In this document: piece by piece, positions 34,523 through 40,249 of the stretch
Position numbering within the stretch: the first letter of the stretch is position 1
Layout of the letters: every line of letters starts with the position of its first letter
Assembly: GCA_019429105.1 (NCBI GenBank)
Contig: JAHYJE010000003.1
Span: forward strand, 1-64,000
Direction of reading: 5' to 3'
Source: Syntrophobacterales bacterium
Lineage (GTDB): Bacteria > Desulfobacterota > Syntrophia > Syntrophales > UBA5619
Length of the DNA: 64,000 nucleotides
The notes under the pieces: generated by a model
The model's input: only the letters and a program-made list of their open reading frames with translations
What the model was told of the DNA's origin: nothing
The model's database searches: none
Made by a program: the position numbers and the translations under genes

Positions 34523-34746
34523 AGCGAAGTTTTCAGGCATGGAAAAACATTTCGCCGTCGGCTCAACCCGATAATAAAATCTCCTTCGTGGGCAAGATCG
34601 ACAAGAAGATCCTGCGGAAAGAGGCCCAATAGAGAAACCTTTGAAAGACGAGACTTTCGTCGTTTGGATGTATCTCAACGGGATAGAGCAAAAGGGTGGC
34701 AATAATTGTCTTTGCTAACAGGGATGACATATGCCATATTGAACAT

Positions 34747-35902
34747 ATGATCAGCGATAACTTAAAATACGTCATCCGTCAATTCGTCGAAAGGGTGTTG
34801 CCTGCCTGCAAACCACGGGAACTGGTTATCCCCACCGGCACCGGCAAAGTTGTCGGTCTGGCCGGCGTCAGACGGTCCGGCAAGACGTTCCTGTTCTTTG
34901 ATGCCATCCAGAGGCTGGCATTGCAAAGGGTTGATCGTCGTCGGATCATGTATCTGAATTTCGAGGATGACCGGCTGGGAGCGGTGGATACGCCGCCTCT
35001 GCGACACGGAAGACGTGGAGGTGTTCATCACCGGAGCCTCTTCGCAGTTGCTGACGCGCGACCTGGCCACGGCCTTGCGGGGCCGCAGCATTACCCTGGA
35101 AGTGTTCCCGCTCTCTTTCCGGGAATATCTGATGTTCCGGGAGATCGAGGTCGTGCCGCACAGCGCCGACAATGAGAGCCGCCTTCGCCATGAACTGGAG
35201 TCGTATCTGTCCTGCGGCGGCTTTCCGGAGATCGTGCTAGCCGATGAGGCGTTGCGGCCGTTGATTCTGGAGGAGTATTCGTCTCTGATGCTCTACCGGG
35301 ACGTGGTGGAACGATATGGGGTGCGCAACGAGAAGCTGATGCGCGATCTGTTGCGGCACTGCTTCCGCAATACCGGTTCGCTCCTGAACGTGAGCAAACT
35401 GCACAAGGACTTCGCATCTCTGGGGTATAACGTTTCCAAGAACACCCTCTTTGACTATCTCGGCTACCTTGAGGACGCCTTTCTGGCGTTTCTGCAGCCG
35501 AAACGGGAAGCCTCGCTCCGGAAGCAGGAGCACAATCCCAAGAAGCTGCATGTGATTGACACGGGACTGATTGCCGCCTACCAGCCGTTTCCGAACCGTG
35601 ATCTGGGCCACAAACTGGAGACCGTGGTATTCCTGGAGAACCGGCGCAGCCGCAAGGATCTTTTCTATTATGCCAACGGCAGCGAGGTTGATCTGTGCGA
35701 CGGAGAGGGAAAAATGTTCGTCAATACCTGCTGGAATCTGGCTGATGCTGAAACATTCCGACGGGAGAAGGCCGCCATGGCGTTTGGCGTCGCCCAGTGG
35801 CCGGAAGCGGAAGGGCGGCTTCTCTTTCACGAGTACGCGCCCGGACAGGAGCGGGAGGCGCCCGGAGCGCAGGCCGCCTGGAGGTATTTGCTTCGCTTAT
35901 AG
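34747..35902 (+). pseudogene. AAA-type ATPase of DUF4143 family, inactivated by internal deletion
   Basis: The first frame (from ATG 34747) encodes the start of a DUF4143-type ATPase with Walker A in GVRRSGKTFLFF and the strand MYLNFEDDRL near codon 78. It then loses sense. A second frame, entered around 34967, carries on with GWERWIRRLCDTEDVEVFITGASSQLL and the complete DUF4143 C-terminal part to 35902. Intact relatives have roughly 30 residues between these points, including Walker B. The join lies in CCGGCTGG, so a deletion removed Walker B and shifted the frame. The gene sits before the DUF1156 methyltransferase. Confidence 0.8.
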
Positions 35903-36051
35903 AGAGCAAACCCTGCACATGGAGTGGATCGCCGCGCTGGACCTTCAGGAGTTTTCAACGGAGGATCGAGATCGGGAAAAGCTATTTTAGCCAAAGGAAT
36001 GGAACGTGACGAAAGGTTGCATTGCCTCGGAGAAAAGATTATAGGCACATC

Positions 36052-38265
36052 ATGTCCATCGAAAAAAAATTCGACATTCCCTTTATTTCCGACCTTGCCC
36101 TGCGGGAAAAACAGATCCAGCAGAACTATCGCCCTATCATTGCCGTACATAAGTGGTTTGCCCGCCGGCCCGGTACGCTGTTCCGGGGTCTTATCCTTTC
36201 AGAATTCAGCGACAAACCTCTTCGGGAAGCTTTCTACAGATCAAACGACCTGAAAGGAATCGCCATCGCCGATCCCTTCATGGGGGGCGGCACGCCGCTC
36301 ATCGAGGCTAACCGCGTTGGCTGCGATGTGACCGGCTATGACATCAATCCGATGGCCTACTGGATTGTGAACCGTGAGATCGAACATCTTGATTTGGGAA
36401 AGTACCGAAAATCGGCGGAAAATCTTACCCGTGGCCTGGAGGCACAGATCGGCGCCTTCTACCGCACCCAATGTCTGGAATGCGGCTCCCCGGACGCTCA
36501 CGTCAAGTATTTCCTCTGGGTGAAAAAGCAGCACTGCCGCGATTGCGGTCATGAATTCGACTTGTTTCCCGGCTACCTGCTGGCCGAAAACCGGCGGCAT
36601 CCGGAGAATGTTTTCATCTGCTCAGCCTGCGGAGACTTGAACGGCGTCGAAGACCGAACAAATCCAGGTATATGCAAGTCCTGTGGCGGCAAAATATCCC
36701 TCGCCGGACCGGCAAAAAGAAGCAACTGCACCTGCCCCCGATGCGGGAAGGTTAATGTTTACCCAAACCCGGCCGCAGGCCCACCCAGTCACCGCATGTT
36801 CGCCATCGAATATCATTGCCGCCGCTGCAAGGCGACCCACCAAGGTCGTTTCTTCAAACGGCCGGATGAAAACGACCTGCTTCATTACACCTGGGCTTCC
36901 TCCATGCTTGAACAAATCGGAACAGCCCATGTCCCCGATGACAAAATCCTGCACGGCGACGAAACCGACCGTCTCCTTCGCTGGGGGTACAAGAGATACC
37001 GGGAGATGTTCAATAACCGCCAATTGCTGGGTCTGGAACTGAGTTGCCGGGCCATTGCCGAGGAGCGGGATGAACGGATCAGAAACGCGCTGATCACAAA
37101 CCTTTCGGATCTCTTGCGCTATCAGAACATGCTTTGCCGATACGATGCCATGGCTCTCAAGTCTCTCGATATTTTCTCCGTTCATGGTTTTCCCGTCGGG
37201 CTGATCCAGTGTGAATCGAACCTCCTCGGCATCGCCAACGGCGGCGGCACGAGCGTGGGGAGCGGCGGTTGGTCAAACATCCTGGAGAAATACGTGAAAG
37301 CAAAGGCCTACTGCGATCACCCCTTCGAGACCCGCCATGAAGGGAGCAGAAAAATCCAGACACCCATCGCGGAAGAATGGATTGGCGACCGGAGAAACGG
37401 CGATTCGACCACAGAACCCCGTGGCGTTCATCTTCTTTGCGGGAGCGCCACAAATGCGGATTTGCCCGGCAACAGTCTTGATGGCGTTTTTACCGATCCC
37501 CCCTATTTCGGCAACGTCCAGTACGCCGAGTTGATGGATTTCTGTTATGTCTGGGTTCGGAAACTGGTCAGTCCGGAAAACCCGATATTTCAGTTCTGCT
37601 CTACTCGCAACCCTGACGAATTGACCGGCAATATCACGATGGAACGAGGTCTTGAACACTTTACCCTCGGATTGTCCGACGTCTTTCAGAACATGGCCAA
37701 GGCCCTGAAACCGGGAAGACCGATGGCCTTCACCTACCATCACAACAAGTTGGAGGCGTATCATCCCGTGATCGTGGCGATCCTGGATGCCGGACTGACC
37801 TGCTCCGCTTCCATCCCCTGCCCGGCGGAAATGAGTGCATCGATCCATATCAGCGGCACCGGTTCGTCGATCGTGGATACGGTTTTTGTCTGCCGTTCGA
37901 CCGGAACGATACCGCGCAAATGGCTTGCGGAATCGCCGGAACAGATTGCCGCCCTGGTCCTGGATGATCTGGATAAACTGAAGATCGGCGGCCTTAAACC
38001 GACCCGCGGCGACATCCGTTGCATTATCTACGGCCATTTGGCCCGTCTTGCCGTCTGGCGGCTTCGCGTGGCCTGGGACAAGACGCAACCGGCGTCGGCA
38101 AAACTCGCCATCGCGGCTGCTGAGCTGAGGCAAGGACGGGCACTGAAATGTATCGAGGATCATCTGGCGGAAAGGTACCTGAATGCGCCGCGGCTTCAGC
38201 AGAATGATTATGTTCAGGAAAATAGGACTTTATATGGAGGAGTTGGTGATGAAATATCCTTTTGA
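36052..38265 (+). CDS. DUF1156 DNA methyltransferase with zinc ribbons
   Basis: This 737-residue protein has the DUF1156 opening (DIPFISDLALREKQIQ...HKWFARRPG), a SAM-binding motif I DPFMGGGT (residues 74-81) followed by GYDINP, and the catalytic TDPPYFGN near residue 482. The order motif I, long insert, motif IV suggests an N6-adenine or N4-cytosine methyltransferase. The insert holds several cysteine pairs (CLECG...CRDCG, CSACG...CKSCG, CPRCG...CRRCK, about residues 142-260), probably three zinc ribbons for DNA recognition. Start ATG 36052 has only a weak site; TTG 36022 is an alternative. It overlaps the nuclease gene by 17 bases. Confidence 0.85.
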   Translation: MSIEKKFDIPFISDLALREKQIQQNYRPIIAVHKWFARRPGTLFRGLILSEFSDKPLREAFYRSNDLKGIAIADPFMGGGTPLIEANRVGCDVTGYDINPMAYWIVNREIEHLDLGKYRKSAENLTRGLEAQIGAFYRTQCLECGSPDAHVKYFLWVKKQHCRDCGHEFDLFPGYLLAENRRHPENVFICSACGDLNGVEDRTNPGICKSCGGKISLAGPAKRSNCTCPRCGKVNVYPNPAAGPPSHRMFAIEYHCRRCKATHQGRFFKRPDENDLLHYTWASSMLEQIGTAHVPDDKILHGDETDRLLRWGYKRYREMFNNRQLLGLELSCRAIAEERDERIRNALITNLSDLLRYQNMLCRYDAMALKSLDIFSVHGFPVGLIQCESNLLGIANGGGTSVGSGGWSNILEKYVKAKAYCDHPFETRHEGSRKIQTPIAEEWIGDRRNGDSTTEPRGVHLLCGSATNADLPGNSLDGVFTDPPYFGNVQYAELMDFCYVWVRKLVSPENPIFQFCSTRNPDELTGNITMERGLEHFTLGLSDVFQNMAKALKPGRPMAFTYHHNKLEAYHPVIVAILDAGLTCSASIPCPAEMSASIHISGTGSSIVDTVFVCRSTGTIPRKWLAESPEQIAALVLDDLDKLKIGGLKPTRGDIRCIIYGHLARLAVWRLRVAWDKTQPASAKLAIAAAELRQGRALKCIEDHLAERYLNAPRLQQNDYVQENRTLYGGVGDEISF

Positions 38266-39277
38266 ACTACCTTTTGCCGAAGTTCAGGCAGATATCGACA
38301 CGTTCGTTACCGCGGTTTTTTCGTGCCTCGAATCGGAATTTCTCATCATGCCGAAAGGCCTCGGTTTCATCGACTACCCCGTTTTCGAACAGGGTTACGA
38401 GGCGCTGAAACAAGCCACCAAGGGCTTCACCTTCCTTAAACCCGAATCGCTGTTTCAAAAGACTTTTGAAGCCCCCATTGTGATCCTGGTATTACGGACC
38501 ATGCTGGGCTTCACGCCGCCGGAATGGGCGTATCTCGCCACTCTACAGACAGGTGTTGAAGTCAGCCAGGGCTTTGTCCGCGCCCTTGACCGAAAAATAC
38601 GTTTATCACCCCTTTCTCCTCTTGCCGACGGTAAAGTCACCGTTGAACGAGTGAAGGCATTGATAGACACTGCTTGCCGGCTGCTGAAAGAAGGAGCACC
38701 CCCGGCTACAACCGATAAAATCCATCGCCTCGACAAGGCTGATACAAAAACAGGCATTTCCGGAGTACAGACGCTTGCGGGAATGGGCGTTCCCTATGCC
38801 ATGCTTCTCTACGAGCGTTTTCTTGGGCGACCTTTTGCCGGTCACCGCGATTCCGTCAGTGATCTTGTCGGAGACAGCCTTGAGGCAGCCGTTGAGGATG
38901 CGTTGAGCAAAGCTGGCATCAGTTACCGGAAAACAAAGCGGGCGGAGAGAATACCCGGCTTCGACCAGACACCCGATTTCATCGTCCCGAGTGAGTTTAA
39001 TCCCCAGATCATCATCGAGGCAAAAATTACGGAAGACGACGGCACGGCCCGTGATAAGGCCACCAGAATCCAGCATCTGGGGGCGCTGAGCATGGCCGGG
39101 CAACCAACGGATAAACCGAAATTCGAGGTAATTGCCTGCATTGCCGGGCGAGGGTTCGGGGTACGTCGTGAGGACATGAAGAAGATGCTTATCGCAACGA
39201 GAGGCAAGGTATTTACCTCACGTAACCTCGACCGCTTGATTGATTGTACCGGACTGCAGCAATACAAAACTCGGTAG
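38249..39277 (+). CDS. PD-(D/E)XK nuclease, putative restriction partner
   Basis: A 342-residue protein with a PD-(D/E)XK catalytic core in the C-terminal third: Asp243 in TPDFIV and Glu257-x-Lys259 in IIIEAKITEDDG, preceded by a helix with Glu212 (DSLEAAVEDALSKAGI) as usual in this fold. The N-terminal 200 residues are not recognised and may read DNA sequence. ATG 38249 follows GGAGGAG by eight bases and lies inside the end of the methyltransferase gene, so the two are translationally coupled. It is most likely the endonuclease of a restriction-modification pair. I know no named enzyme of this exact type. Confidence 0.75.
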   Translation: MKYPFELPFAEVQADIDTFVTAVFSCLESEFLIMPKGLGFIDYPVFEQGYEALKQATKGFTFLKPESLFQKTFEAPIVILVLRTMLGFTPPEWAYLATLQTGVEVSQGFVRALDRKIRLSPLSPLADGKVTVERVKALIDTACRLLKEGAPPATTDKIHRLDKADTKTGISGVQTLAGMGVPYAMLLYERFLGRPFAGHRDSVSDLVGDSLEAAVEDALSKAGISYRKTKRAERIPGFDQTPDFIVPSEFNPQIIIEAKITEDDGTARDKATRIQHLGALSMAGQPTDKPKFEVIACIAGRGFGVRREDMKKMLIATRGKVFTSRNLDRLIDCTGLQQYKTR

Positions 39278-39354: not shown

Positions 39355-39523
39355 ATGGATCCGGAATTAGCAGATCTGGTTTACCGTCACAAGGAAATCG
39401 CGCGGGAGGAGAAAGAGAAAAGCGGGCGTCTGGTGTTTGGAACGCTCTGCTCCTATGTTCCCGTCGAGATTCTGCATGCGTTCGATATCCTGCCGGTCCG
39501 GTTTTGGGGGGATGGCAGGAACA
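39355..39523 (+). pseudogene. 2-hydroxyacyl-CoA dehydratase subunit, N-terminal fragment
   Basis: A normal start (AAAGGGAG before ATG 39355) leads into about 55 codons that match the N terminus of HgdB/FldB-type 2-hydroxyacyl-CoA dehydratase subunits: a charged helix, then LVFGTLCSYVPVEILHAFDILPVRFWG, where the cysteine is a probable [4Fe-4S] ligand. The match stops abruptly at about 39515, and a CoA-transferase gene begins in another frame. The remaining 300 or more residues are missing. Confidence 0.7.
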
Positions 39524-40249
39524 ATGAACTATCCACTGCATGGCATGAAGATTCTTGACTTCACCTATCTGTTTCCCGGTCCCTATGGTACCATGATGCT
39601 GTCCGATATGGGGGCTGAGATTATTGAAGTTGAGAACTTTAATAATCCCGCCCTTATGCGGATTACTCCTCCGATACAGGAAGGTATGTCCGCCGTTTAC
39701 GCGCGGGTAAATCGAGGCAAAAAATCCCTTGCCTTGAATTTAAAAAGCGATGAAGCGAAGGAGATCGTTTACAAACTTCTCGGGGAATACGATATCGTGC
39801 TTGAGCAGTTCAGGCCCGGCGTGATGTAAAGGCTCGGGCTGGGATATGACAGGCTGAAACGGGTTAAAAGCTCGATCATTTACTGTTCCCTGACGGGCTA
39901 CGGCCAGACAGGCGGTTACGCGGACAGAGCGGGGCATGATATCAATTATCTCGCGTTATCCGGAATTGAATCATTTTCGGGAAGAAAGGATTCAGGGCCG
40001 TTGCTGAGCGGGATACAGATTGCGGATATCGCAGCCGACTCCAAGAATCTTGTCATCGCCGTGCTGACTGCGTACATAAAAAGATTAACGACCGGCGAAG
40101 GCGATTATGCCGACATATCCATTAAAACAATGGCTGAATGGCATTCAATATTCAAAAATACCGACGCCTGCGCGGAGCCTGTTTTCAATCTTCAGGAGGC
40201 GATAAGCAAAATAGAAACTGGAATAATACGTCAGGAGGCAAAACAATGA
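39524..40249 (+). pseudogene. CaiB/BaiF-type CoA-transferase, nonsense codon and internal deletion
   Basis: From ATG 39524 the frame encodes a class III CoA-transferase N terminus (GMKILDFTYLFPGPYGTMMLSDMGAEIIEVE, LNLKSDEAK, FRPGVM). A TAA at 39827-39829 replaces the expected Asp of the VMDRLGLGY motif. The same frame then resumes with RLGLGYDRLK, SLTGYGQTGGYADRAGHDINYLALSG (with the catalytic Asp in HDINY) and reaches KTMAEWHSIFKNTDACAEPV, the normal C-terminal region. About 130 central residues are missing, so two lesions inactivate the gene. It directly abuts a dehydratase fragment. Confidence 0.82.

Follow-up and report, generated by a model that had tools for sequence, protein, structure and literature searches.

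Two overlapping genes in the window analysed here, a stretch of 64,000 nucleotides from a Syntrophobacterales bacterium, were read in an initial annotation as a compact DUF1156 methyltransferase and PD-(D/E)XK nuclease pair, possibly an undescribed restriction-modification system. The locus raises the question of whether the two genes form such a system by themselves and, if so, which of the two proteins would select the DNA site. The results are most consistent with a stand-alone two-gene Type II restriction-modification system composed of a nuclease of an unnamed family and an unusual methyltransferase, a reading to which we assign a probability of about 0.8.

Gene organization of the pair

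The sequence agrees with the coordinates and lengths first given for the two genes and with their overlap of 17 bases (38249-38265). The features are located as follows.

36052..38265, + strand: methyltransferase gene, ATG 36052 to stop 38265, 737 aa
38236..38242, + strand: GGAGGAG, likely ribosome-binding site of the nuclease, inside the methyltransferase gene and 6 nt before the nuclease ATG
38249..39277, + strand: nuclease gene, ATG 38249 to stop 39277, 342 aa, presumed restriction endonuclease
35999..39255, no strand: mobile cassette, defined by DNA homology to the closest relative (L063; blastn, 92-94% identity)

Purine stretches like GGAGGAG are also present in several relatives. Longer alternative starts are found at TTG 36022 for the methyltransferase and ATG 38183 for the nuclease; homology starts only from ATG 36052 and ATG 38249. 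The cassette lies among gene remnants. Directly upstream (34696-35902) is an AAA_14/DUF4143 ATPase pseudogene split over two frames and with an internal stretch missing (profile positions 3-45, then 75-129), and directly downstream (39355-39830) is a CoA-transferase family III gene, recognized with Pfam, that is truncated and preceded by a short fragment resembling a dehydratase subunit by eye.

Recurrence and linkage of the two genes

The two-gene arrangement proposed from this one locus recurs elsewhere. A scan of 84,980 species genomes revealed 316 relatives of the nuclease, and 84 loci (80 genomic and 4 viral) were read in detail. A DUF1156-like methyltransferase is located directly upstream of the nuclease in 83/84 loci and the genes overlap by 8-17 bases in 79 of those 83, the commonest value being 17. 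Among 395 genomes of the phylum both genes are intact in the same 14 (14/14) and neither is intact without the other, copies ended by contig edges being counted as intact; the chance of such co-occurrence is ~1e-25 before allowing for phylogeny. Elsewhere in the phylum, remnants of the pair were detected (L018, L023, L026, L029 and L033). The two genes are also co-inherited, as the protein distances of methyltransferase and nuclease are correlated with r = 0.80 while the highest of 2000 permutations reached 0.23. Clustering of all neighbouring genes revealed no third conserved gene near the pair, the next family being present in 9 loci, and no conserved ATPase or helicase.

The carriers, most of which are metagenome bins, belong to at least 19 phyla and include an archaeal genome bin. 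Cultured carriers include Desulfacinum hydrothermale DSM 13146 (L073), Desulfocicer vacuolatum DSM 3385 (L091), Heliophilum fasciatum DSM 11170 (L135) and Halochromatium roseum DSM 18859 (L139). These phyla are intermixed in the tree, a result indicating that the pair moves horizontally. Neither protein had a match among phage records, and only four IMG/VR contigs carry the pair. The closest relative, L063, is from a Syntrophobacterales bin in which the flanks gave no blastn match and were unrelated when read side by side. Since homology ends at the edges of the cassette, the unit moves by itself. An apparent break in the methyltransferase of L063 was rejected on finding a run of N in the record.

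The nuclease had a dN/dS of ~0.11 and the methyltransferase, analysed as two halves, one of 0.17-0.18, indicating that both genes are under purifying selection. The nuclease is interrupted beside an intact methyltransferase in L098 and L123, and that of L082 has lost the catalytic glutamate (E257G). Both genes are broken in L134. In L138 the methyltransferase gene is interrupted by a stop codon close to its end, in a part that is poorly conserved. L138 apart, no broken methyltransferase with an intact nuclease was seen in the loci read. The asymmetry appears to run in the direction expected of restriction-modification, in three or four loci where assembly errors are possible. A candidate in-frame methyltransferase-nuclease fusion in L138 was rejected, as a stop codon lies between the genes on the reading frame.

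A divergent DUF1156-like methyltransferase

The methyltransferase (36052..38265, + strand) belongs to the DUF1156-like class of DNA amino-methyltransferases, with the motif order I - insert - IV in an alignment of 77 members. The features within it are as follows.

36271..36294, + strand: motif I DPFMGGGT, residues 74-81, S-adenosylmethionine binding; DPF.GGG invariant in 77/77
36472..36828, + strand: three CxxC...CxxC zinc-ribbon-like sets, residues 141-259, putatively metal binding
37102..37326, + strand: candidate target-recognition segment, residues 351-425
37492..37506, + strand: catalytic motif IV TDPPY, residues 481-485; invariant in 77/77

All the motifs originally reported for this protein are present: DPFMGGGT at 74-81, the three cysteine sets, and the TDPPY placed near 482. 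The sole variable position in the DPF.GGG and TDPPY motifs of the 77 proteins is M77. The start of the insert has six CxxC pairs (141/144, 162/165, 190/193, 208/211, 228/231 and 256/259), with the cysteines of 162/165, 190/193, 208/211 and 228/231 invariant in 77/77. The third set is gone in 13/77 methyltransferases through loss of C256/C259 and change of C144 to Y (L117, L119, L123, L126, L130 and eight more). The AlphaFold model (pLDDT 87.6, pTM 0.89) has a Rossmann methyltransferase core, and solved relatives match over the core only.

The class assignment first made from the letters stands with one qualification. Pfam DUF1156 (PF06634) scored 19.7 bits (E 9e-4) with hmmscan and 23.5 bits in the genome search, below the cut-off of 24. 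The wider kinship is clear from matches to NCBIfam DUF1156_antiphage (E 6e-25) and PADLOC HmaB (E 2e-22), each far below the model's full-length score, and PHROG 10183 'DNA methyltransferase' matched at E 6e-87. Judged by these profiles, the protein is related to the DUF1156 proteins but has diverged from them.

Within the subfamily, conservation of residues 351-375 reaches 96%, but related methyltransferases with other partners match only 24% of them, gap-free. Conservation inside the subfamily together with poor matching outside points to this stretch as the likely recognition segment, and all members of the subfamily may accordingly read one DNA site.

DUF1156 has been treated in a DUF499-centred, BREX-related context, and methyltransferases related to this class are believed to act inside multi-protein systems (PMC12839542). 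The protein resembles HmaB of the Hma/DUF499 systems in two respects: its N-terminal part is helical and DUF1156-like, and its motifs are separated by a long recognition insert. The pair differs from those systems in having a dedicated small nuclease in place of the DUF499 ATPase, Snf2 helicase and DUF3780 (PMC12839542). The initial annotation had noted that no DUF499 system is present here, which was found to hold for the whole host genome: DUF499 is absent from it and there is no conserved helicase neighbour, features that place the pair outside the Hma systems. A reduced Hma system, from which ATPase and helicase had been lost and to which a spare nuclease had been added, would fit the kinship with HmaB and DUF1156 antiphage proteins. 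Such an origin is very improbable given the absence of DUF499, conservation of the two-gene form across at least 19 phyla, and a subfamily clearly set apart, the nearest other DUF1156-like methyltransferases being 28-34% identical and of similar or larger size.

Related methyltransferases are found with several other partners. In L177 (L177:5476-8454) an EcoO109I-family restriction enzyme is located 9 bases from a DUF1156-like methyltransferase. This pair is likewise composed of two adjacent genes encoding the same methyltransferase class and a small Type II nuclease; it differs in the nuclease family, in having the nuclease first, and in a methyltransferase only 34% identical. Two unnamed families of ~250-310 aa with PD...ExK-like motifs by eye adjoin compact DUF1156-like methyltransferases, the first at L186:8548-9306, L188:1-855 and L189:4178-4966 and the second, in the L179-L182 group, at L179:6321-7232, L180:7174-8103 and L182:7460-8392; three members scanned had no Pfam match. 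Helicases are the partners in L183 and L184. Related plasmid methyltransferases adjoin DUF499 genes in haloarchaea, whereas in Tabrizicola and Acidiphilium the gene preceding them encodes a hypothetical protein of 270 aa. HVO_A0006 of Haloferax was considered as a relative; the literature presents it as a Type IIG protein fragment (PMC4389544) and the kinship was unsupported. The host genome contains further distant DUF1156-like genes (G000:C22:60199-61254, G000:C10:79615-81351, G000:C31:6148-8346 and G000:C11:3036-3146).

The nuclease belongs to an unnamed PD-(D/E)XK family

The features of the nuclease are as follows.

38249..39277, + strand: PD-(D/E)XK nuclease, 342 aa (80-member alignment, AlphaFold, Foldseek)
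38249..38818, + strand: all-helical N-terminal region, residues 1-190 (helices in model), presumed DNA-recognition domain
38849..39238, + strand: catalytic domain, residues 201-330 (motifs and model), with a core common to group C nucleases
38975-38977, 39017-39019 and 39023-39025, + strand: catalytic residues D243, E257 and K259

The catalytic residues are at the positions assigned to them earlier (P242-D243 and E257-A-K259); D243 and K259 are invariant in 80/80 relatives and E257 is present in 79/80. Conservation among relatives rules out chance for the motifs of both proteins. In the AlphaFold model (pLDDT 84.8, pTM 0.54) the N-terminal region is all-helical and the PD-(D/E)XK elements are found in the C-terminal domain, the first core strand being weakly assigned; the pTM leaves the relative placement of the domains uncertain. 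Foldseek against the PDB identified BstEII (GGTNACC; PDB 9ibq) as the best match with a probability of 0.99 and a moderate E of 2.2e-3, followed by weaker matches that include Can2, EcoT38I and BsoBI. A viral fold library yielded weak generic nuclease matches only. Thus, the model agrees with the PD-(D/E)XK fold first proposed, and the best solved match is a Type II restriction enzyme.

The likeness to BstEII is one of fold, as a profile search of PDB sequences found no sequence-level match to solved restriction enzymes, BstEII included. No name above threshold was obtained for the nuclease in Pfam, NCBIfam, PADLOC, PHROGs or the PDB sequence search, and in Pfam it matched neither the DpnII family (PF04556) nor the BanI family (PF24447). 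The description of the system as undescribed holds within these five resources and an open-access paper library.

Distant nuclease relatives and a partner swap

Two groups of distant relatives bear on the role of the N-terminal region. Group B nucleases are 28-32% identical, and their alignment with this family (hhalign 99.8%, E 5e-30) starts at residue 37 and extends almost to the end, so that most of the all-helical region is common to nucleases adjoining another methyltransferase, a protein of ~300 aa related to M.PvuII. Group C nucleases have the catalytic core in common with this family (E 2e-9), pass the Pfam DpnII cut-off and adjoin one or two methyltransferases. The likeness to the DpnII and BanI families (PF04556, PF24447) is one of the catalytic core, which is homologous to that of group C; the nuclease of this pair matches neither family. 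Residues 80-118 resemble an XRE-type helix-turn-helix by eye only. The suggestion in the initial annotation that the specificity domain may be the N terminus is plausible, as this region is all-helical in the model and mostly common to group B.

The nuclease of L129 (L129:4389-7023), 64% identical to the one described here, is located behind an SPPY-motif methyltransferase. The latter has 46% identity with a group C methyltransferase and no full-length similarity to the DUF1156-like methyltransferase of the pair. This arrangement, found on a single contig, has the appearance of a natural partner swap. A nuclease family that can change its methyltransferase partner most simply carries its own specificity; together with the group B and C partners this swap, the only close one, suggests that the nuclease may recognize its site independently of the methyltransferase.

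These observations also bear on a quite unlikely alternative, in which the nuclease lacks specificity and works only when complexed with the methyltransferase. The recognition segment of the methyltransferase would then pick the target for both proteins, much as in Type I, Type III or BREX-related systems except that no ATPase takes part. A complex would suit the nearly constant overlap, the rarity of loci in which the two genes are apart, and the multi-protein systems in which relatives in the methyltransferase class are believed to act (PMC12839542). Against this are the nuclease family's occurrence beside three or more unrelated methyltransferase types, with one swap at 64% nuclease identity, and the lack of a conserved ATPase or helicase gene nearby. 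A Type IV-like nuclease of modified DNA, accompanied by a methyltransferase with another purpose, is highly unlikely: no tool result favours it, cutting methylated DNA while linked to a methyltransferase is suicidal unless the marks differ, and the nearest relatives are restriction enzymes of the DpnII and BstEII kinds.

Discussion

The results support the earlier reading of the locus as a restriction-modification pair, since the pair recurs and the modelled nuclease fold is PD-(D/E)XK. The type is indicated by linkage of nuclease and methyltransferase, intact catalytic motifs in both, and no ATPase or helicase subunit. As in classical Type II systems, an amino-methyltransferase and a PD-(D/E)XK nuclease are encoded by adjacent genes that have no ATPase gene with them, move as a unit and have a dispersed distribution. 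The pair differs from them in that the methyltransferase is large and DUF1156-like with zinc-ribbon sets and an alpha-type motif order, whereas classical Type II methyltransferases are usually of the smaller beta or gamma type, and in that the nuclease matches no named family.

In the proposed Type II mechanism the methyltransferase would modify a fixed DNA site in the host, the modified base probably being adenine-N6 based on the DPPY motif. The nuclease would recognize the same site alone, through its helical N-terminal domain and PD-(D/E)XK core, and cut it when unmodified, such that methylation protects the host while incoming phage or plasmid DNA is destroyed. With the methyltransferase gene first and the nuclease started from a ribosome-binding site inside its end, the proportion of the two proteins could be kept and the methyltransferase made first. 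The unit moves between genomes as one cassette.

A broader proposal, speculative and in our view unlikely, is that the pair represents a general class of restriction-modification systems built on one zinc-ribbon DUF1156-like methyltransferase scaffold, to which small nucleases of at least three or four unrelated kinds have been joined, and that the nuclease here chooses the target jointly with the methyltransferase and without an ATPase, an intermediate between Type II and BREX-related systems.

The pair is probably a defence system, and hundreds of sequenced species carry it, cultured strains included; the defence-finding and annotation libraries tried miss it, and none of them names the nuclease. 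It would also mean that a methyltransferase class known from BREX-related multi-protein systems provides modification in compact two-gene systems too, where it is combined with several different nucleases. Since the candidate recognition segment is nearly invariant, the site of the whole family could probably be read from the methylome of a single cultured carrier, and the nuclease might serve as a new reagent enzyme.
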